DNA from: a virus
Length of the DNA: 64,000 nucleotides
Virus record (IMG/VR): IMGVR_UViG_3300013772_000002
Coordinates: 1-64,000 of that record
Direction: 5' to 3' (one strand)
The notes beneath the pieces were generated by a model. It saw nothing but the letters and a program-made list of their open reading frames with translations. It was not told the DNA's origin and did no database searches. This document shows, piece by piece, positions 2,840 through 41,512 of this stretch; position 1 is the first letter of the stretch, and each line of letters starts with the position of its first letter. The translations under genes and the position numbers were made by a program.

Positions 2840-3060
2840 CGTGCGCGCTCCATCTCGATTGAGATGGAGGAGAGGCTTGACTCGCTGAAGCCAGTGAATT
2901 GGCAGGTGTCATACTCGCCCGCGTACGGGCCGGACCAGATTGCGACGACGGAAGCGAACCACGGGTACTGGGTGGAGACTTCCGTGGCGGTGAGCGTCTC
3001 CTGATAGTCTGACTCCGGGTCGTCGCCACGCTTGATAGTGACGATGAACGTGCGTTCCAT
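2836..3060 (-). CDS. Hypothetical protein (74 aa)
   Basis: ATG at 3060 follows AAAGGGACACCGCC. The product looks beta-rich with several aromatic residues. It overlaps the start of a small membrane protein gene by 4 bases, so the two are probably co-translated and may act together. No family recognised. Confidence 0.65.
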   Translation of the reverse strand: MERTFIVTIKRGDDPESDYQETLTATEVSTQYPWFASVVAIWSGPYAGEYDTCQFTGFSESSLSSISIEMERAR

Positions 3061-3082
3061 GGCGGTGTCCCTTTCGTTACGC

Positions 3083-3109
3083 GCGCCCCTCGATAATGCC
3101 GAGGGGCGC
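3083..3109 (-). terminator. Strong 10-bp hairpin between 3122-3310 and 2836-3060
   Basis: GCGCCCCTCG, a 7-base loop and CGAGGGGCGC. The left arm plus part of the loop duplicates the last codons of 3122-3310 (Ile-Ile-Glu-Gly-Arg-Gly), as if the hairpin arose by copying the gene's end. There is no T-run. Confidence 0.5.
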
Positions 3110-3121
3110 TATCGTCATGTC

Positions 3122-3310
3122 CTACCCGCGCCCCTCGATAATCTCGAGCGCGCGCTGCATACCCTTGAGCTGGTACGCCATCGGCGACGTGAGCACATTG
3201 GGGTTGCGCGTGGCGATGTCCGCGATGAGCTTCTCCAGGTGCTCGGTCCGATTCTTGAGCTCCTCGATCGGCGTGACGACGAACGCGCCATTGATATAGT
3301 TGCCGTGCAT
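3122..3310 (-). CDS. Hypothetical helical protein (62 aa)
   Basis: ATG at 3310 follows GGAAAGGACAAGGT; promoter at 3351-3379. After a short N-terminal strand the product is a long amphipathic helix (about residues 15-60) that may form a coiled coil. No family recognised. Confidence 0.65.
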   Translation of the reverse strand: MHGNYINGAFVVTPIEELKNRTEHLEKLIADIATRNPNVLTSPMAYQLKGMQRALEIIEGRG

Positions 3311-3350
3311 ACCTTGTCCTTTCCTGAACTCCCGATCCTCGACTAACCGT

Positions 3351-3379
3351 AGTATAGCATGGTAGCGTTATCGTGTCAA
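3351..3379 (-). promoter_or_regulatory. Sigma70-type promoter (leftward)
   Basis: TTGACA (3379-3374), 17 bases, TATACT (3356-3351). It contains the TGA stop of 3376-3627. Confidence 0.85.
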
Positions 3380-3627
3380 CTCGCGTACGCCATCTCCGCC
3401 GTTCGCGCGTCGATATTGGCGAGCAGTTCGTCGAGCATCAGGGAGAATTCATGATCGCGCTCGGCGCGGACGGCGAATGAGCGATTCCACACGCGCAACG
3501 TCACTCCGTGCGCGACCGCATAGCGCGGGCAGAAGCATCGCACGTCGCGGAATTCCCGAAACAGTCGCACGCCCCGCCAGAGACCGTCCTCACCTAGTTC
3601 GTCAATGCCGATAATCTCGTATGTCAT
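3376..3627 (-). CDS. Hypothetical protein (83 aa)
   Basis: ATG at 3627 follows GGAAGGGAGCACACATC, preferred over an upstream in-frame start. The product has a mixed fold with Arg-rich strands, a Cys-Phe-Cys-Pro segment and an acidic C-terminal helix. First leftward gene of the divergent region. No family recognised. Confidence 0.65.
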   Translation of the reverse strand: MTYEIIGIDELGEDGLWRGVRLFREFRDVRCFCPRYAVAHGVTLRVWNRSFAVRAERDHEFSLMLDELLANIDARTAEMAYAS

Positions 3628-3666
3628 GATGTGTGCTCCCTTCCGCATCTCTCGTTCGACATACTC

Positions 3667-8900: not shown

Positions 8901-9491
8901 TTGATGATCGACGCGAGCGTTGGTAGGCGTGTCTTGGTTGCCTGTGAATTTTCGGGCATTGTACGAGACGCCTTCCTGTCTGTCGGTTGCGATGCTCTGT
9001 CCTGTGACTTCCTGCCTACCGAGAGACCCGGTCCGCACTACCAGGGTGACGTGCGCGATTTGCTCGGGGATGGTTGGAACCTAATGATCGCGCACCCGCC
9101 CTGTACCTATCTGGCGGTAAGTGGGGCGCGCTGGTTCAAGGATCGACGTGGCGAGCAGGCAGAGGCGCTGGACTTCGTTCGTCTCCTCATGGACGCACCG
9201 ATCCCGCGCATCTGTATTGAGAATCCGGTGAGCGTCATCAGTAGCGCGATCCGCCGTCCCGATCAGATCGTCCAACCGTGGATGTTTGGACATGGCGAGA
9301 CGAAAGCGACGTGTCTCTGGCTAAAGAACCTCCCGCCCCTCACGCCGACAAATGTTGTGGAGGGGCGGACACCTCGAGTGCATCTCGCATCGCCGGGACC
9401 AGAGCGATGGAAGGAGCGGAGCAGGACGCTTCCGGGGATTGCGGAGGCGATGGCGAATCAATGGGCAGCAGTAGAAATGAGAATTTCTTGA
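8901..9491 (+). CDS. Dcm-like DNA cytosine methyltransferase (phage type)
   Basis: 196 aa. It shows an SAM-binding start (Glu-Phe-Ser-Gly near residue 16), a catalytic Pro-Pro-Cys within Ala-His-Pro-Pro-Cys-Thr-Tyr (about residues 63-70) and an Ile-Glu-Asn-Pro (about 106-109) corresponding to the ENV motif of C5 methyltransferases. It is shorter than typical bacterial C5 enzymes, as in the phage family I recall. ATG follows GAAAGGTTAGCAG. It is flanked by 37-bp direct repeats, so the gene may have arrived as a cassette. Its TGA overlaps a possible TTG start of the next methyltransferase. Confidence 0.75.
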   Translation: MMIDASVGRRVLVACEFSGIVRDAFLSVGCDALSCDFLPTERPGPHYQGDVRDLLGDGWNLMIAHPPCTYLAVSGARWFKDRRGEQAEALDFVRLLMDAPIPRICIENPVSVISSAIRRPDQIVQPWMFGHGETKATCLWLKNLPPLTPTNVVEGRTPRVHLASPGPERWKERSRTLPGIAEAMANQWAAVEMRIS

Positions 9492-10267
9492 CTTCATCGT
9501 ACTACAACGATAATGGTATCACCCTCTATCACGATCGGTGCGAAGTCATCTTGCCGACGCTTCCTGACTGCAGCGTGGACATGGTTCTTGCTGATTTGCC
9601 TTACCAGCAAACGAGAAACACTTGGGACTCCGCCATCGATCTCGACTTCCTCTGGCCACAATATCGTCGCATCGTCAAGCCGAACGGCGCCATCATTCTT
9701 TTCGGTCAAGGGATGTTCTCTGCCGTCCTGATGATGAGCAATCCCAAAGAATATCGTTATTCCTTGATCTGGGAGAAAGATCGTCCGACCGGATTCCTCA
9801 ACGCCAACCGGATGCCGCTCAGGAGCCATGAGGACATCCACGTCTTCTATCGCTCCTTGCCTACTTACCATCCGCAGATGTGGCAAGGAGAGCCGCAGCA
9901 CAGCCGTGGTATCGGGGGCGGCGTCAACGCGAAGAAGACGACCAACTACGGCGCCTATACGAACGATCCTGAAGACCCGCGTGCCGGCAACACCTTGAAG
10001 CACCCGCGCTCGGTACTGCACTTCCCGAAGCCCCACCCGGCGAAGCATCCGACCGAGAAGCCGGTCGCTCTCTGCGCTTACCTGATCCGGATGTTCTCGA
10101 ATCCCGGTGACGTCGTTCTCGACAATACCGCTGGGATCGCGAGTACAGGCGTCGCCTGTCAACACGCGGGAGGACGGCGCTTTATCGGCATCGAGTGCGA
10201 CGAGGAATACTGCCAGATCGCCGTCGATCGTTTCGCCGTGCATAACCCGATGGAACGTTCGGCATGA
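9461..10267 (+). CDS. DNA adenine/N4-cytosine methyltransferase (beta class)
   Basis: About 268 aa from ATG 9461. A TTG at 9488 overlapping the upstream stop would match the usual start of this family. It has catalytic Asp-Leu-Pro-Tyr (about residues 44-47), then a C-terminal His-Pro-Thr-Glu-Lys-Pro and the SAM-binding motif. That motif reads Asp-Asn-Thr-Ala-Gly-Ile-Ala where relatives usually have Met-Gly-Ser-Gly, so the second glycine is replaced and activity is uncertain. The site specificity cannot be read from sequence. The 4-bp overlap with the next gene suggests co-expression. Confidence 0.85.
   Translation: MGSSRNENFLTSSYYNDNGITLYHDRCEVILPTLPDCSVDMVLADLPYQQTRNTWDSAIDLDFLWPQYRRIVKPNGAIILFGQGMFSAVLMMSNPKEYRYSLIWEKDRPTGFLNANRMPLRSHEDIHVFYRSLPTYHPQMWQGEPQHSRGIGGGVNAKKTTNYGAYTNDPEDPRAGNTLKHPRSVLHFPKPHPAKHPTEKPVALCAYLIRMFSNPGDVVLDNTAGIASTGVACQHAGGRRFIGIECDEEYCQIAVDRFAVHNPMERSA
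9470..9506 (+). repeat. 37-bp direct repeat, copy 2
   Basis: Second copy of 8847-8883 with three differences. It covers the 3' end of 8901-9491 and the start of the adjacent methyltransferase gene. Confidence 0.8.
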
Positions 10268-10974
10268 GTAAGCCAACACACATCGATCTCTTTTCGGGGA
10301 TCGGCGCCTTTTCATTAGCGGCGCGCTGGGCAGGCTTCGAGACGATCCTCCACTGCGAGATTGATCCGTACTGCCAGCGCGTACTCGAAAAGAACTTTCC
10401 GGAGGTGCCCATTCATGGAGATGTCCACACCCTTCGTAATGCCAGGTTCGCCGACCTTCTTACCGGCGGTCATCCCTGTCAACCCTTCAGTGGCGTCGGC
10501 GAGCAACGCGATTTTGCCGACGATCGCGACCTCTGGCCAGAAATGTTTCGCTGCATCACGGAGATACGACCGACATGGGTTGTTGCTGAGAATGTTGAAA
10601 GATTCTCTCGCGTTGGGCTCGATCGCACTCTCTCCGACCTGGAAGGAGCGGGTTACGCCGCAGGGTCGCTCGTATTTCCGGCTCTCGCTGTCGGAGCGCA
10701 GCATCGTCGCCAGCGGACATTCACTCTTGCCTACGCCGGTGGCAAGGGACTGGAAGGGAGCGCCCTCACGAGCAACGCAGAGCATTTGCAAGTACATCAG
10801 GACATTCTTTCCCGATACGACCGGCCGTCCGTACCCCGAGTACTTAGAGGCGGTCATGGGATTCCCCACGCTTTGGACCAAATTAGAGTGCTCGGAAACG
10901 CCATCGTCCCCCAACAATGTTATCCGATCTTGAAACTGATCGCGGATAACATTATCGAGGAACGCGCCGCATGA
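10264..10974 (+). CDS. C5-cytosine DNA methyltransferase, tandem copy 1
   Basis: 236 aa with the ordered C5 motifs: I (Asp-Leu-Phe-Ser-Gly-Ile-Gly, residues 8-14), IV (Gly-Gly-His-Pro-Cys-Gln-Pro-Phe-Ser, about 68-76, catalytic Cys), VI (Glu-Asn-Val, about 108-110), VIII (Arg-Arg-Gln-Arg, about 150) and X (Arg-Val-Leu-Gly-Asn-Ala-Ile-Val-Pro-Gln, about 210-219). The target-recognition region between VIII and X is short. ATG overlaps the previous stop (ATGA). Probably intact and active. A +1-frame ORF (10415-10933) lies inside it. Confidence 0.9.
   Translation: MSKPTHIDLFSGIGAFSLAARWAGFETILHCEIDPYCQRVLEKNFPEVPIHGDVHTLRNARFADLLTGGHPCQPFSGVGEQRDFADDRDLWPEMFRCITEIRPTWVVAENVERFSRVGLDRTLSDLEGAGYAAGSLVFPALAVGAQHRRQRTFTLAYAGGKGLEGSALTSNAEHLQVHQDILSRYDRPSVPRVLRGGHGIPHALDQIRVLGNAIVPQQCYPILKLIADNIIEERAA
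10415..10933 (+). CDS. Overlapping +1-frame ORF in methyltransferase copy 1
   Basis: 172 codons fully inside 10264-10974. The ATG follows GGAGGTG at 7 bases, a good ribosome-binding site. The protein contains Ser-Gly-Gln-Lys-Cys, Leu-Leu-Pro-Thr-Pro and Gly-Phe-Pro-Thr-Leu-Trp-Thr motifs that recur in the equivalent frames of copies 2 and 3. From memory, separate database proteins carry such motifs next to phage C5 methyltransferases. The motifs could instead be shadows of conserved methyltransferase motifs, so translation is unproven. Confidence 0.35.
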   Translation: MEMSTPFVMPGSPTFLPAVIPVNPSVASASNAILPTIATSGQKCFAASRRYDRHGLLLRMLKDSLALGSIALSPTWKERVTPQGRSYFRLSLSERSIVASGHSLLPTPVARDWKGAPSRATQSICKYIRTFFPDTTGRPYPEYLEAVMGFPTLWTKLECSETPSSPNNVIRS

Positions 10975-11903
10975 GTGAACTTACTCACGTCGATCTTTTC
11001 AATAGTGCGCTCGGTTTGCCCGTACCACCAACGCATGTCGATCTCTTCAGCGGCATTGCCGGTTTTGCTCTTTCAGCATCTTGGGCTGGCTTCGAGACGA
11101 AGCTCTTTTGCGAGATCGATCCTTTCTGTCAGAAAGTGATCGCGAAGAACTTTCCCGGGGTACCGATCCATGACGACATTCGTACCCTTATGACCAGGAA
11201 GGAGGAGATGCCTAGTGGATTCAATGGAGCGATCGACCTCGTTACCGGCGGATTCCCGTAGCCTTGCCAACCTTACTCAAACGCCGGTAAAAAGCGAGGT
11301 ACCGACGACCCTCGTGATCTCTGGCCAGAAATGCGACGCGTCATTGCCGCCATCCAACCGCGCTGGGTTGTTGGTGAAAATGTTGAAAACTTCGTCAACA
11401 TGGAACTCGACCGGACGTGTGCCGACCTGGAGGGGGAAGGCTACGAAGTCGGGGAACCGCTTGTTTTCCCGGCTAGTGCAGTTGGAGCGCGGCATCTCCG
11501 TTACCGGACTATCGTTATTGCCCACTCCCGTCGCTTCGGACGCGACGACTGGCAGGATCATTGGTCGGGACGACACCTATCTGATTCGTCCCCATGCGTT
11601 GCCACGCAAGATCAATCGCATGGGTCAGAACGGCTCCGTCGGACTGGCGCGATTGGTGAAGATCGAGGAGGCAATCAGGCTAGGCAAGATGTCCAGGGAG
11701 CAGCCGATTTCGATCTCGGGACGCGACGTCCTTCGTTTGACCGAGGGTCTTGGGGAGTTGAATCCGGAATTCGCCGAGTGGTTGTTGGGGTACCCGACCA
11801 ACTGGACCGCATTAGGGCATTAGGGAATTCGATTTCGCCCTGGCAATTGTACCCCGTCCTCAAGGCGATTGCCGACGATCTGCGATTGGAGCGCGTTACA
11901 TGA
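10971..11903 (+). pseudogene. C5-cytosine methyltransferase copy 2, split by amber codon
   Basis: Reads as one C5 methyltransferase except for TAG at 11259-11261. Around the stop the sequence is Gly-Gly-Phe-Pro-stop-Pro-Cys-Gln-Pro: a 6-base insertion (CCGTAG or an equivalent shift) placed exactly in catalytic motif IV. The frame then continues through Leu-Trp-Pro-Glu-Met, Glu-Asn-Val and Arg-Ala-Leu-Gly-Asn-Ser-Ile to a normal stop. The N-terminus repeats Thr-His-Val-Asp-Leu-Phe twice (residues 5-10 and 21-26). It is either a pseudogene or expressed only by readthrough; other genes here use TAG as an ordinary stop. Confidence 0.8.
11215..11823 (+). CDS. Overlapping +1-frame ORF in methyltransferase copy 2
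   Basis: 202 codons from GTG 11215, preceded by AAGGAGGAG at suitable spacing. Not interrupted where the methyltransferase frame is; the 6-base insertion adds only two residues. It carries Ser-Gly-Gln-Lys-Cys, Leu-Leu-Pro-Thr-Pro-Val-Ala-Ser-Asp and Leu-Asn-Pro-Glu-Phe-Ala-Glu-Trp-Leu-Leu-Gly-Tyr-Pro. Its middle part reads like real protein sequence I recall from phage and prophage methyltransferase loci. The strongest case of the three for a translated second frame. Confidence 0.45.
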   Translation: MDSMERSTSLPADSRSLANLTQTPVKSEVPTTLVISGQKCDASLPPSNRAGLLVKMLKTSSTWNSTGRVPTWRGKATKSGNRLFSRLVQLERGISVTGLSLLPTPVASDATTGRIIGRDDTYLIRPHALPRKINRMGQNGSVGLARLVKIEEAIRLGKMSREQPISISGRDVLRLTEGLGELNPEFAEWLLGYPTNWTALGH

Positions 11904-12652
11904 GTGAATTTACTCACGTAGATTTATGTTCGGGAATTGGTGGTTTTTCCTTGGCGGCATGGTGGGCTGGATTTCAAACTATCCTCCATTGTGAGATCGA
12001 TCCCTATTGTCAGAAAGTGCTGGCGAAGAACTTTCCGGAGGTACCAATTCATGACGACATCCACGCTCTTACCGGCATCTCCTCCGCCGACCTACTTACC
12101 GGAGGTCCACCATGTCAGCCATTTAGTAATGCCGGGAAGCGAGTCGGCACGGCAGATGACCGCCATCTCTGGCCAGAGATGTTGCGCATTATTGACGCAA
12201 GCCGACCCACTTGGTGCGTTATTGAAAACGTTGATGGTTTCACCGGAATGGCGCTCGATCTCGTCTGGTCTGATCTGGAAAGCGCGAACTACGAAGTCGG
12301 GGCGGTTGTATTTCCGGCTAGCGCCGTCGGTGCGTGGCATCGCCGCGACCGGCTTTGGGTTATTGCCCACACCCAAAGCGTCGGATGTGGATCGGGGCGG
12401 TCGTGGCGATCTCTTGCAAGCACTTCGGGGAAACAGCAACAAACACTTTCGACGCGCGAGACTCCCGACGGGCGAGAGTATCGCGTCGACCAGTGGACAT
12501 CCGAACCCAGTGTGGATCGAATGGTTCCAGGGCTACCCTCCGAACTGGACATATGTCGACGACGTGCCATCGGAAATTCGATAGTTCCGCAACAGGCTTT
12601 CCCCGTTCTAAGGGCGATCGCTGATAGCCTTCGATTGGAGCGCTCCGCATGA
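11900..12652 (+). CDS. C5-cytosine DNA methyltransferase, tandem copy 3
   Basis: 250 aa, intact. Motif I is Asp-Leu-Cys-Ser-Gly-Ile-Gly (about residues 8-14); motif IV is Gly-Gly-Pro-Pro-Cys-Gln-Pro-Phe-Ser (about 68-76); motif VI is Glu-Asn-Val (about 109); motif VIII is Arg-Arg-Asp-Arg; motif X is Arg-Ala-Ile-Gly-Asn-Ser-Ile-Val-Pro-Gln (about 225-234). ATG overlaps the stop of copy 2 (ATGA). The three copies share the first 60 or so residues closely and diverge in the recognition region, so they probably differ in target site. Confidence 0.9.
   Translation: MSEFTHVDLCSGIGGFSLAAWWAGFQTILHCEIDPYCQKVLAKNFPEVPIHDDIHALTGISSADLLTGGPPCQPFSNAGKRVGTADDRHLWPEMLRIIDASRPTWCVIENVDGFTGMALDLVWSDLESANYEVGAVVFPASAVGAWHRRDRLWVIAHTQSVGCGSGRSWRSLASTSGKQQQTLSTRETPDGREYRVDQWTSEPSVDRMVPGLPSELDICRRRAIGNSIVPQQAFPVLRAIADSLRLERSA
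12051..12584 (+). CDS. Overlapping +1-frame ORF in methyltransferase copy 3
   Basis: 177 codons from an ATG preceded by GGAGGT at 8 bases, inside 11900-12652. It has Ser-Gly-Gln-Arg-Cys-Cys, Leu-Leu-Pro-Thr-Pro-Lys-Ala-Ser-Asp and Gly-Tyr-Pro-Pro-Asn-Trp-Thr, in the same order and frame relation as in copies 1 and 2. Whether it is translated is unknown. Confidence 0.38.
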   Translation: MTTSTLLPASPPPTYLPEVHHVSHLVMPGSESARQMTAISGQRCCALLTQADPLGALLKTLMVSPEWRSISSGLIWKARTTKSGRLYFRLAPSVRGIAATGFGLLPTPKASDVDRGGRGDLLQALRGNSNKHFRRARLPTGESIASTSGHPNPVWIEWFQGYPPNWTYVDDVPSEIR

Positions 12653-26119: not shown

Positions 26120-27529
26120 TTGGTGAACGAGGTTTCGTCGCGTATTCCAACAATTGAGGAGCTCTCCCGGGCGTGCGCCGATATCTGGGAGGTCGCTTGG
26201 GGGATGGGACTACGTCCCTTCCCGATGCACTACGAGATCGTTCCCGCCGCGATTCTCTATGAGTTCGGCGCGTATGGCATGCCCGGTCGCTTCTCGCATT
26301 GGTCGCATGGCAAGGCGTATCATCAGATGAAGACCGAGTACGACTATGGGCTTTCGAAAATCTATGAGCTCGTCGTCAACACGAATCCGTGCTACGCCTT
26401 TCTTCTGGACTCGAACGGCTTTATCCAGAATAAACTGATCATCGCTCACGTGCTCGCGCATTCCGACTTCTTCGCGAATAACGCCTACTTTGCCGAGACA
26501 AATCGTCATATGCTCGATACGATGCCCATGAGTGCGGAGCGTATCCGTGGCTACGAGTACGAGTATGGCAAGGACGCGGTCGAGTCGGTCATCGACGCGG
26601 CGCTCGCTATTTGTTTGCATCTCGATACGACCGCGACCGCGTACCCACGCCGACCGATTTATGACGACGAGGGGCGTCCCGATCCGAAGTGGCGCCCGCC
26701 CGCCCGCGAAACCGTTTACGACGATGTTTGGGAGGAGCGGAAAACGGAAGCCGCGCCCGCCGAAGCCCGTACGGGGGATTCCGCCCGCGACCTCCTCCTC
26801 TTTATCGCCCGACATTCTCCCGACGCCGAGGACTGGCAGCGCGACGTTATCAATATTATTCGTGAGGAGATGCGCTACTTCCGTCCACAAATGCAGACGA
26901 AGATATGCAACGAGGGGTGGGCCAGCTACTGGCATACCCGCATCTTGCGCGAACTCGATCTCACTGGCGAAGAATCGCTTGTTTGGATGGGGATGCACGG
27001 TGGCGTCGTCCAGCCCGGGAAGCGGCAGATCAACCCCTACTACCTCGGCTACAAAATCCTTGAGGACATCGAGAAGCGCTGGTCGGAGGATGGCAAGTAT
27101 CCCGAGAAGGGACGCGAGAAGCTCTTTGAGGTGCGCGAATTGGAGGCGGATGCCTCGCTCTTGCGCAACTACCTGACCAAGGAACTCTGCGAAGAACTCG
27201 ACCTCTATGTCTACGTGCGCGCTCCCCATAGTAATGATCTTGTCGTTTCCGAGAAAGAGGAGTGGGAGATCGTTCGTGATACCTTCGCCGCTGAACTCTC
27301 CAGTCGCGGCATTCCGATCATTGTCATCGATGATGGTGACTTCGGCGGCATGCGCGAGCTCTATATGCGCCATGTCCGTGACGGTCGCGATCTCGATCTC
27401 GACTATGCGAAACGCGTCATGGAGCGGATTCATCACCTCTGGGGGCGGAACGTTTATTTGGAAACGAGCAATGGCGAGAAGAAATCGGTCCTTGCCTACA
27501 ACGCGAAGAACGGGCATTCAACAAATTGA
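26120..27529 (+). CDS. spoVR: SpoVR family protein
   Basis: 469 aa, the usual SpoVR length. TTG (or GTG at 26123) follows AGAGGAGCAACCA. Characteristic SpoVR segments include Phe-Tyr-like start regions, Arg-Phe-Ser-His-Trp near residue 55, Asn-Pro-Cys-Tyr-Ala-Phe-Leu, Ala-His-Ser-Asp-Phe-Phe and Cys-Asn-Glu-Gly-Trp-Ala-Ser-Tyr-Trp. In Bacillus SpoVR is needed for proper spore cortex formation; in other bacteria it travels with PrkA and YhbH. Its biochemical activity is not settled. The TGA stop lies within the promoter of the next unit. Confidence 0.93.
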   Translation: MVNEVSSRIPTIEELSRACADIWEVAWGMGLRPFPMHYEIVPAAILYEFGAYGMPGRFSHWSHGKAYHQMKTEYDYGLSKIYELVVNTNPCYAFLLDSNGFIQNKLIIAHVLAHSDFFANNAYFAETNRHMLDTMPMSAERIRGYEYEYGKDAVESVIDAALAICLHLDTTATAYPRRPIYDDEGRPDPKWRPPARETVYDDVWEERKTEAAPAEARTGDSARDLLLFIARHSPDAEDWQRDVINIIREEMRYFRPQMQTKICNEGWASYWHTRILRELDLTGEESLVWMGMHGGVVQPGKRQINPYYLGYKILEDIEKRWSEDGKYPEKGREKLFEVRELEADASLLRNYLTKELCEELDLYVYVRAPHSNDLVVSEKEEWEIVRDTFAAELSSRGIPIIVIDDGDFGGMRELYMRHVRDGRDLDLDYAKRVMERIHHLWGRNVYLETSNGEKKSVLAYNAKNGHSTN

Positions 27530-37861: not shown

Positions 37862-40800
37862 GTGACAACTGATCCATATATTCATCTTCACCTACATACC
37901 AGCTTCAGCACCGCCGATGGCATTCCCTCGCCCGACCAGATTGCCGAGGCAATCGTTGAGCGCGGGCAGGACGGTTGCGCCATTACGGATCATGGCGCGC
38001 TCCACGGTCTTTTTCCCTTCGACGCGGCGATGCGGAAGGCGGGGAAACACCCCATCCTAGGGGGGGAGCTTTATTTGACGGTTGGACCGATCGTCAAGAA
38101 TAGTGATGGCGCAAAGCCGATTCGGGATAGTTTTCATCTCACCGCGCTTGCCAAGAATGAGATCGGCTATCGCAATCTTCTCGCCCTCAATGCCAAGGCG
38201 TCGATTGAGAATACCTACTATGATAAACCGCGCGTCACGCTGGATTGGCTTGCGGAACATCGCGAAGGTCTCGTTATCCTCTCTGGCTGTATATCCTCAC
38301 TGATTTCCGTCTGCATTCTCGCGGCAAAACTGGAAGGAGCGTGGGGAGACAGGGCACGCGCAAAATCAGGTGTTCGCTTCGGCTATCTCGATGTGGCGCT
38401 AAAACACTTCCTTTGGTTTCGCGAGACGTTTGGCGAAGACTTCTTCGTCGAATTAATGGATCACGGTCTTCCCGAGGAGGAAATAGTTGCCAAGCAACTC
38501 CTCGCCTGGGCAGATCAGTATGAAGTGCCGATTGTCGGCACCAACGACGTTCACTACCTAGAAAAGGATGATTTTCAGATACAGACCGTCATCACTGCCG
38601 CGACGCGGAAGAAGGACGATGATGGCGTCTGGACCGAGGGAATCGGTCACGAAGGACTGCATCTCATGACGGGTGCGGAGATGGCGGTATTACCGCTCTT
38701 TCTCGAACGCCCCGAAGCGCTGACCAATACGCGCGTTGTTTTTGAGCGCTGCGTATTCGATCTGCCCGCGCCACCATCGCTCCTGCCGTCTTTCCCCTTG
38801 CCAAAGGGCGCGAAGGGCATTGAATCGTACCTCTGGGACAAAGTAGTCGCCGGTTGCCACCGGCGCTATGGACATATGTCGGGTGAAGTGCTCGATCGTG
38901 CGACCTACGAGTTTGAGGTCATTCGTGACATGCGTTTCCTCGACTACTTTGCAGTCGTTGAGGAGTTGATCTCCTGGTCGAAAAATAAGGGCATTCGTGT
39001 TGGCCCCGGTCGTGGGAGCGCGGCAGGATCGCTCGTCGTTTATGCGCTCGGTATTACGGATGTCGATCCGCTCCACTTCGGTCTCTTTTTTGAGCGCTTC
39101 CTGAATCCGAATCGTATCTCGATGCCGGACATCGACATTGATTTCGCTGACACGCGACGCGATGAGGTCGTAGCGCATGTGCGAAAAGTCTATGGTGATG
39201 CCCATGTTGCCCAGATATCGACCTATGGCACATTAGCGTCGCGTTCTTCGGTGCGAGCTGTCGCGCGGGCGATGGGAGTCGGGTATCTCGCGAGCGATCT
39301 TCTTGCGAAGCAATTCCCGATGGGTCCGACGAGTCCGCCGATGGCAGAGAGTGCCGCCAGTCCGGCTATCCTCAACTATCTTGCCCAGCAGCCGGACGGT
39401 GAGCGAGAGGAGCTTGAGGAACTCGTCCGTACGGCGGTGACGATTAATGGGCGGATCAATAATGTTGGCCGTCATGCAGCAGGCATCGTGATTTCCGGTC
39501 CGCCGATCCTCGATTACATTCCCGTCGGGCAAATCAAGGGCGAGAAGGTCGTGCAATGCTCGATGCATGAAGTGGAAGACAAGGGACTCCTCAAGATGGA
39601 TTTCCTTGGTCTCACGACATTGACGCTGATCAATGTGGCCGAAGAGTTGATCAACGCCAATCGCGCATCGACACTCGAGCCATTCGCCGTAGCGGATCAG
39701 CCACTTGAAGGACCTGACGCCGACGCGGTCTACGCAATGATGGCGCGCGGTGATGTCTTTGGGTGCTTCCAGCTCGATCAGGCGACGGCATTGGGCATTA
39801 CACGACAGGTAAAACCCCGTCGCTTCGACGATGTTGTGACAATCACTGCGCTTGGTCGTCCTGGACCAATGGAACATGCTCCCCAATTTGTGTCGCGACG
39901 TGAGGGGCGGGAGGCGGTTGTCTACGCCCATCCCGATCTCGAGCCCGTCCTGGGAGATACTTACGGATTCCCCGTTTTTCAGGAGCAGGTGATGCAAATC
40001 GCTCGTGTCCTGGCGGGTTACTCGCTCGCCGAGGCGGATGAACTGCGCAAGGCAATGGGCAAGAAGCTGCCGGTTGAGATGGCAAAGCATCGCGATCGTT
40101 TCCTCGCGGGATGTCGGGGAAAGGGTATCGCCGATAACATCTCGAATCCACTTTTTGATGATATGGAGAAGTTCTCCGGTTACGGGTTCAATCGCTCGCA
40201 TTCGACTTGTTATGCGCTCATTGGCTTCTGGACGGGTTTCCTTTCTTGTCATTATCCGAATGAATTCCTGGCTGCCTTAATGACGAGTGAGTTCGGTAAT
40301 TCCGAGAAAGTTGCGCGTGTGATTGCCGAATCTCGTCATCGCGGAATCGGTATCCTTCCTCCGTCGGTTGATCGTAGTCAATGGGCGTGCACTATTGAAG
40401 GGAGCGCTCTTCGTCTCGGATTGGGCATGGTCAAAGGATTGGGCGCTGACATGGCTCGCCAGATCGCCGCTAGTGCTCCATATGATTCGATCGACGCACT
40501 TTTCTTGCGTATCCCAGCGATTAGTTCCGGAGCCGTCACGGCATTAGTTAAATCTGGGGCGTGCGACCACCTCATCCCCGATCGGTCGCCCAAGCAACGC
40601 GTCGGCGTCTCCGAGCAAGTATCAGCGATGGCAAGACGCGTGCGGGCAATGGTGAAGAAGAATCAGAACGGTCTTCAGACTTCACTCTTTGCGCCAACCG
40701 AGCACTTCGTTCCTCTTCCCCTTGCCGTCCATCCGGACAGCTCATTAAAGGAAACGCTCGAGAATGAGCTCGGGATACTCGGTTGCTATCTGACGCTCTC

Positions 40801-41512
40801 ACCACTTGCTGAGTTGGCAGAGCGTGAGGGACGCGGTGCATCCCTTGCCGATGTGCCGGAGGAAGTTCCGCCCGACGAGGAAATCACCTATGCATTCAAG
40901 GCGCCGCACGACTACGTTGTCGAAGTGCGCGAAATGAATGTCGTCTTGACGAAGGAGTCCCAAGAGTCAATGGCACTCCTAACCGTTGCTGACGCACAGG
41001 GCACGAAGCGTCGTATGGCAGTTTTCCCGCGACTCTATCGCGAGCTGGCGCCGGAGGGTCTCGCACAGGGCGCGCTGATGCGGGTCGTCGCGCGCGCGAA
41101 CATCTACAAAGGCGAGGTCGGTCTTGTCGCCAATGAAGCGCGTATCGTTGCCCTCGGCGACATCGAGCGGATGATGCGTGCGGATGATGCACGGATGCTC
41201 GAAGTCCTGCACGTTTCATTCTCACAGGCACAGTTGGCGACACCAGTCTACATGCGCTTTCTTACAAGCGCCATCAATCGTCCGGAGTTCTCCGGAGACC
41301 GCCCTGTGATCCTCCACACGCCCGATGGCAAGGCGGTACCACTCTCGACGGGCGTCAAGGCCCCACGCGCCATCTGCGAGCACCTGCGCACTCTCTTTGG
41401 GGGTCGCGTGTCCACCGGACCACCCGGACTCCGTTGGCGTGATGAGGCATGGAATTTGTACGACCCAAACGCGGCATTGAGTGAAGAAGACTTCGCCGAC
41501 GTGCCATTTTAG
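37862..41512 (+). CDS. dnaE: DNA polymerase III alpha subunit (DnaE)
   Basis: 1216 aa, the length of cellular DnaE. GTG follows GAGGGAGCGATC. An N-terminal PHP domain begins His-Leu-His-Leu-His-Thr (residues 8-13) and has Thr-Asp-His-Gly near 42. The polymerase core has Gly-Pro-Gly-Arg-Gly-Ser-Ala-Ala-Gly-Ser (about 382-391) and the catalytic Pro-Asp-Ile-Asp-Ile-Asp-Phe (about 421-427). A Phe-Asn-Arg-Ser-His segment near 778 and a C-terminal OB-like region follow. No intein is seen. It gives the phage its own C-family replicase; no helicase or primase lies in this window. Confidence 0.96.
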   Translation: MTTDPYIHLHLHTSFSTADGIPSPDQIAEAIVERGQDGCAITDHGALHGLFPFDAAMRKAGKHPILGGELYLTVGPIVKNSDGAKPIRDSFHLTALAKNEIGYRNLLALNAKASIENTYYDKPRVTLDWLAEHREGLVILSGCISSLISVCILAAKLEGAWGDRARAKSGVRFGYLDVALKHFLWFRETFGEDFFVELMDHGLPEEEIVAKQLLAWADQYEVPIVGTNDVHYLEKDDFQIQTVITAATRKKDDDGVWTEGIGHEGLHLMTGAEMAVLPLFLERPEALTNTRVVFERCVFDLPAPPSLLPSFPLPKGAKGIESYLWDKVVAGCHRRYGHMSGEVLDRATYEFEVIRDMRFLDYFAVVEELISWSKNKGIRVGPGRGSAAGSLVVYALGITDVDPLHFGLFFERFLNPNRISMPDIDIDFADTRRDEVVAHVRKVYGDAHVAQISTYGTLASRSSVRAVARAMGVGYLASDLLAKQFPMGPTSPPMAESAASPAILNYLAQQPDGEREELEELVRTAVTINGRINNVGRHAAGIVISGPPILDYIPVGQIKGEKVVQCSMHEVEDKGLLKMDFLGLTTLTLINVAEELINANRASTLEPFAVADQPLEGPDADAVYAMMARGDVFGCFQLDQATALGITRQVKPRRFDDVVTITALGRPGPMEHAPQFVSRREGREAVVYAHPDLEPVLGDTYGFPVFQEQVMQIARVLAGYSLAEADELRKAMGKKLPVEMAKHRDRFLAGCRGKGIADNISNPLFDDMEKFSGYGFNRSHSTCYALIGFWTGFLSCHYPNEFLAALMTSEFGNSEKVARVIAESRHRGIGILPPSVDRSQWACTIEGSALRLGLGMVKGLGADMARQIAASAPYDSIDALFLRIPAISSGAVTALVKSGACDHLIPDRSPKQRVGVSEQVSAMARRVRAMVKKNQNGLQTSLFAPTEHFVPLPLAVHPDSSLKETLENELGILGCYLTLSPLAELAEREGRGASLADVPEEVPPDEEITYAFKAPHDYVVEVREMNVVLTKESQESMALLTVADAQGTKRRMAVFPRLYRELAPEGLAQGALMRVVARANIYKGEVGLVANEARIVALGDIERMMRADDARMLEVLHVSFSQAQLATPVYMRFLTSAINRPEFSGDRPVILHTPDGKAVPLSTGVKAPRAICEHLRTLFGGRVSTGPPGLRWRDEAWNLYDPNAALSEEDFADVPF

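Follow-up and report, generated by a model that had tools for sequence, protein, structure and literature searches.

The three tandem C5 methyltransferase genes described here each contain, in the +1 frame, a second gene that is conserved, protein-coding and under selection in its own right. From the way the motifs are shared out over the two frames, we judge it likely that each locus specifies one C5 methyltransferase in two chains, with the outer frame (A) encoding a catalytic chain and the nested frame (B) encoding, from an internal start, a chain that would carry target recognition and motif IX.

Three tandem methyltransferase genes with nested reading frames

The stretch analysed (the window, 64,000 nucleotides of a 104,816-base virus record) has three consecutive A genes that overlap by 4 bases at their ends (Table 1). 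The first-pass annotation had described three tandem C5 methyltransferases, each with a +1 ORF that has a good Shine-Dalgarno sequence and start codon and shares the motifs SGQ(K/R)C, LLPTP and G(F/Y)PxxWT with the others. We found all three ORFs in the +1 frame relative to A frames starting at 10264, 10971 and 11900, and their proteins could be aligned with one another from end to end, with the motifs in identical order. Translation signals were likewise present in every copy: GGAGGTG lies 7 nt before the ATG in copy 1, GGAGGT lies 8 nt before the ATG in copy 3, and copy 2 has AAGGAGG followed about 9 nt on by GTG. The description held for all of the B frames and for the A frames of copies 1 and 3, which have PF00145 motifs I-VIII including PCQ and ENV; the A frame of copy 2, however, is interrupted. 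Profile searches with the B proteins gave no significant Pfam or NCBIfam match, and the four matches to PHROG 1008 in the whole record all fell within the three B ORFs of the window.

Table 1. Features of the three methyltransferase copies in the window
Feature	Position	Strand	Basis
Copy 1, frame A: C5 methyltransferase chain lacking motif IX (I-VIII and X present)	10264..10974	+	PF00145, 4e-37, profile positions 3-170 of 324 only; phrog_363, 3e-67
Copy 1, internal Shine-Dalgarno GGAGGTG upstream of B ATG	10402..10408 (+/- ~1 base)	+	sequence
Copy 1, frame B: putative recognition/motif IX chain, +1	10415..10933	+	phrog_1008, 3e-17; three-copy alignment
Copy 2, frame A: C5 methyltransferase chain, interrupted	10971..11903 (pieces 10971-11261 and 11262-11900)	+	PF00145 match with one TAG inside
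Copy 2, in-frame TAG in A at the PCQ catalytic motif	11259..11261	+	6-nt insertion
Copy 2, frame B: uninterrupted; its variable cassette is longer than those of copies 1 and 3	11215..11823	+	phrog_1008, 3e-19
Copy 3, frame A: uninterrupted C5 methyltransferase chain with motifs I-VIII and X	11900..12652	+	PF00145, 1e-38, profile positions 1-166; phrog_363, 7e-73
Copy 3, internal Shine-Dalgarno GGAGGT upstream of B ATG	12037..12042	+	sequence
Copy 3, frame B: putative recognition/motif IX chain, +1	12051..12584	+	phrog_1008, 2e-17, obtained with the longer ORF from 11937; tblastn matches in phages

The stop codon in copy 2 lies inside the 6-nt insertion in its PCQ motif, and the B frame of this copy runs on uninterrupted from its own Shine-Dalgarno sequence and GTG start. 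Since TAG terminates many large genes of this phage, we took the codon to be a real stop, and recoding of TAG in copy 2 was ruled out on the same ground.

Immediately upstream are a phrog_757 DNA methyltransferase gene (8901-9491) and an N6/N4 methyltransferase gene (9278-10267, PF01555), which with the three A genes make five methyltransferase genes in a row. Elsewhere the window holds a phage-borne SpoVR-like gene (26120-27529, plus strand, PF04293, 6e-124), a 435-residue ORF antisense to it (26210-27517, minus strand) that has no family match and is probably spurious, and a 1216-residue phage DNA polymerase (37862-41512, PHROG 405, E-value 4e-271).

The nested frame is conserved and under selection

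The motifs shared by the three B proteins turned out to be weaker evidence than had been claimed for them. They are present, but SGQKC is largely the +1 reading of LWPEM in A, as LLPTP is of VIAHT and GYPxxWT of GVPxxLDR. Because B motifs are in this way partly forced by A, an alignment of the three copies alone could not settle whether B is real, and we therefore collected related loci. A search with frame-A patterns, which is blind to B, returned 80 viral loci, and in all 80 of them frame B was open and overlapped A in the +1 frame.

Differences between relatives (62 independent pairs) were distributed over positions 1, 2 and 3 of the A codons in shares of.22/.12/.66 before B and.20/.15/.65 after B, against.40/.23/.37 inside the overlap, so that the third-position variation of A collapses exactly where B is read. 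As position 3 of an A codon is position 2 of a B codon, this shift is the signature of a second coding frame. When changes in the overlap were scored as synonymous or not in both frames, omega was.60 for A (bootstrap.57-.64) and.61 for B (.55-.68), values that are approximate, being pairwise with a transition weight of 2 and no multiple-hit correction. Both frames are under purifying selection in the overlap. Supporting this independently of any motif echo, the A codons that B reads as Trp-Thr are frozen at synonymous sites: the first was NTG and the second GAC in 83 of 83 A genes, compared with a background of 23% GTG among valine codons. In a permissive scan, B opened with a start codon preceded by 5 or more nt matching the Shine-Dalgarno sequence in 60% of the loci versus 20% of synonymous shuffles.

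The length of the frame points the same way. In a set of 248 distinct A/B genes, the median length of the longest +1 ORF was 234 codons, and it fell to 95 when A was shuffled synonymously; 202 of the genes beat all of their 200 shuffles, and the figure for the +2 frame in this comparison was 48. For the window itself, equally long +1 ORFs arose in 0.7% of shuffles for copy 1, 2.4% for copy 2 and 0.04% for copy 3. B is a conserved, selected protein-coding overlapping gene, as the first-pass annotation had suggested, and the pattern that it had named as speaking against one (stops in B in many homologs with no suppression of synonymous variation in A) is clearly not the pattern of these loci.

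B occurs only with its A frame

B-based scans of viral contigs and of bacterial and archaeal genomes yielded 225 B ORFs, of which 218 lay fully and seven partly inside a +1 A frame, and no stand-alone B was found among them. By contig title, the A/B pairs come from Bacillota, Bacteroidota, Pseudomonadota, Calditrichota, Planctomycetes, Dehalococcoidales, Coriobacteriia, Parcubacteria and others. The PF00145 genes of 15 bacterial genomes fell into two classes, one that matches only the first half of the model and carries B (15 of 15 genes) and one of ordinary C5 methyltransferases that mostly match the full model. In the latter class, comprising about 14 genes from the same genomes, the length of the +1 ORF was near the expectation from synonymous shuffles and no comparable B ORF was seen; two ordinary control genes (L319 and L322) gave weak partial B matches.

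Judged by profile coverage, both frames were complete in 281 of the 296 loci that were not cut by a contig end, and both were rearranged in six. In the other nine, A was incomplete and B complete: two of these (L224 and L312) fell just below the coverage threshold, and in the remaining seven A is truly broken or split. The converse, a broken B with an intact A, occurred in none of the 296 loci.

Some individual loci depart from the common arrangement. One, L211, is an A-B fusion. A prophage of E. coli PT62 (L354) has two A-type methyltransferases, at positions 1-923 and 2898-3654, each with an unannotated B; these genes form a diverged branch and their B ends read LNPQWVEWFMGWPIGWTEL. In a prophage of E. 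coli PCP07014 (L355, 2850-3651) the methyltransferase is called a pseudogene with an internal stop in RefSeq, and of frame B the second half alone was recovered as an ORF.

The two frames carry complementary motifs

The A protein resembles M.HhaI through motif VIII (HhaI profile match 1-178) and ends in motif X (LGNAIVPQ or IGNSIVPQ). Neither motif IX nor a target-recognition domain was found in the A chain, whose match to PF00145 stops at profile position 166-170 of 324 and whose spacer between motifs VIII and X is unconstrained. The end of B, in turn, has the motif-IX-like sequence LNPxxxEWLMGYPxxWT, which can be compared with the motif IX region of an ordinary C5 methyltransferase (L329), RLTPMECERLQGFPDGWTAYD...MLGNSV. 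While hhalign placed the end of B exactly on canonical motif IX, the match was short and weak (E-value.003, probability 10%).

A few relatives divide the motifs differently. In mycobacteriophage JangDynasty (L007), gp6 stops past motif VIII, and in gp5 (...FAEWMMGWPDGWV...IIGNGVCPQQ) motif IX is succeeded by motif X in one frame and at the canonical distance; both proteins are annotated as DNA methylase. Two further loci (L306 and L118) have an A that ends after motif VIII and a motif X inside the frame of B. With motif X in its own frame, B must serve the methyltransferase in these three relatives, and on these sequences the arrangement is hard to explain otherwise than by B and A forming one enzyme.

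The variable region appears to be written in B

In the A proteins of the window the spacer between motifs VIII and X is only ~40-50 residues long, and it is a linker rich in Ser, Arg, Gly and Glu. Along the overlap, omega for A and B, respectively, was.24 and.56 over motifs IV-VIII, 1.1 and.66 over the VIII-X spacer, and.79 and.42 over the end region. A frame-neutral comparison of the spacer nucleotides in 68 independent pairs, which replaced a B-frame BLAST that favours B by selection, gave an identity of.79 for frame B, against.55 for A and.54 for the third frame, which is not used; the more similar frame of the two was B in 61 pairs and A in five. By the B-frame BLAST, itself biased to B, the cassettes of copy 2 and of another locus (L242) were 58% identical in B, compared with 34% in A, and variable cassettes were found to be shared across loci. 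As the spacer is constrained in B and not in A, the variable, recognition-like region is apparently written in B, with A there a mere linker, and target recognition thus appears to belong to B rather than to A.

Some long B proteins (L055, L036, L048 and L306) hold several copies of a (L/W)PTPxAxD module, an arrangement that recalls the recognition domains found in tandem in multispecific phage C5 methyltransferases. An AlphaFold2 model of the copy 3 B protein alone, made with 106 B sequences, was poor (pLDDT 66, pTM.28), Foldseek with predicted B returned nothing from the PDB below an E-value of 0.001, and a B sequence search of the PDB returned no relevant match. The poor solo model fits a B chain that folds on its partner, although it proves nothing in that respect.

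A proposed two-chain enzyme and its alternatives

In the arrangement that we consider likely, frame A would be translated into a chain with catalytic motifs I-VIII, the unconstrained linker and motif X, and ribosomes starting at the internal Shine-Dalgarno sequence and start codon would make the B chain from the same message. B would consist of a conserved N-terminal part, a recognition region of interchangeable cassettes, and motif IX. The two chains would associate physically and be active jointly, A binding AdoMet and transferring the methyl group and B substituting for the missing small domain. The first-pass annotation had guessed at a recognition or partner subunit, and the complementary motifs, the relatives with motif X in the B frame and the constraint on the recognition region in B only all favour its guess. 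The most likely role would be protection of the phage DNA from host restriction, which is suggested by the two methyltransferase genes that neighbour the locus upstream.

Might B instead be a real protein with a separate function, for instance in counter-defence or as a regulator of the methyltransferase, and not half of an enzyme? The failure of the structural searches to confirm a recognition domain in B and its lack of a Pfam or NCBIfam family would agree with such a function, and the absence of B without A may reflect mere nesting. We think it unlikely nonetheless, because it would leave unexplained an A chain that lacks motif IX and a recognition region next to a B chain that ends in a motif-IX-like sequence, the motif X in the B frame of L306, L118 and JangDynasty gp5, and a spacer that is unconstrained in A.

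Less likely still is a model with no internal start, in which ribosomes would pass from A into B by programmed +1 frameshifting and B would form the C-terminal portion of an A-B fusion. Every B frame is +1 relative to A, as frameshifting would require, yet B has a conserved N-terminus downstream of the enriched start codon and Shine-Dalgarno sequence, and the A codons past the B stop are under normal A constraint, which means that full-length A is also made. Programmed frameshifting may still be an additional route to B beside the internal start. Finally, a reading of the long +1 ORFs as a mere side effect of the amino-acid composition and codon bias of A has next to no chance of being right: despite the echoed motifs and the copy 2 ORF, whose length is the most often equalled among shuffles, this reading is refuted by the shuffles of the 248 genes, the ordinary methyltransferases that have no such ORF, the frozen synonymous sites of A and the survival of B beside broken A frames.

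For the two-chain enzyme, copy 2 raises a further possibility. Its A is broken at the catalytic motif and its B is intact, so the latter may persist as an extra specificity chain for the A protein of copy 1 or copy 3. Extended to a general scheme, B would be an exchangeable specificity subunit: its mobile cassettes would determine the target, and one A could be served by more than one B chain, so that the three B proteins here, which differ in their cassettes and include that of copy 2, would share the A proteins of copies 1 and 3. We offer this scheme tentatively and regard it as possible but doubtful; if true, a single phage would obtain three or more methylation specificities from overlapping DNA.

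Implications

To our knowledge most overlapping genes that have been described are short or lineage-specific, and it is unusual for an overlap to be long, fully nested on the same strand, selected in both frames and retained in phages and prophages from many bacterial phyla. There are also practical consequences. Many database entries named 'DNA cytosine methyltransferase' are suggested to be half-enzymes with an unannotated partner, and as recognition is apparently in B, target specificity predicted from A would be wrong. Synonymous recoding of A for expression would destroy B and could give inactive clones.

Comparison with known split methyltransferases

Most of the records that we examined (HB10c2, Lc-Nu, C72C1 and E. 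coli RefSeq prophages) list frame A only. A family for frame B already exists in PHROG 1008 (329 positions, matches of 1e-17 to 1e-19), whose label, 'DNA methyltransferase', is silent on the role of an overlapping partner chain. The same B with the same +1 nesting is found in Paenibacillus phages Redbud (gp51) and Lily (gp63), where it is annotated as 'internal gene' with no function given. A literature search on this overlap returned nothing beyond mentions of M.EcoHK31I and M.AquI.

M.EcoHK31I is said to have been described by Lee, Kam and Shaw in 1995 as a two-polypeptide (alpha/beta) C5 methyltransferase recognizing YGGCCR. Its beta gene reportedly lies inside the alpha gene in a different reading frame, with chains of ~309 and ~176 residues, an overlap and sizes similar to those of A and B in the window. 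The enzyme has been termed 'naturally split' (PMC3439449); its large chain has motifs I-VIII and X with a predicted target-recognition domain and its small chain only motif IX, while M.AquI has motifs I-VIII on one chain and IX-X on the other (PMC3404938, 2012).

M.AquI is like the window genes in being a C5 methyltransferase in two chains with motifs I-VIII in the large one. It differs in having both IX and X in its small chain, where the window genes keep X in A and only IX in B, and, unlike M.AquI, the window B lies wholly within A in a different frame. A split of the M.AquI type, with X in the frame of the second chain, was seen only in L306, L118 and JangDynasty gp6/gp5.

With M.EcoHK31I the window genes share the motif split itself, in which the small chain has IX and the large chain I-VIII and X, though the motif IX match of B is weak. 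Two differences stand out. M.EcoHK31I is a restriction-modification enzyme, whereas genes of the window type belong to phages and prophages and have no adjacent restriction gene in the annotated loci; a search of E. coli genomes for a restriction-modification locus like that of EcoHK31I gave prophage copies only. In addition, the target-recognition domain is predicted in the alpha chain of M.EcoHK31I and the constrained variable region here is in B. By their layout, the window genes are best called members of the M.EcoHK31I kind. While the split layout of a C5 methyltransferase was known already, what appears to be new is its breadth, the evidence of selection on both frames and the placing of recognition in B, and with these M.EcoHK31I would go from an apparent exception to one of a widespread class.
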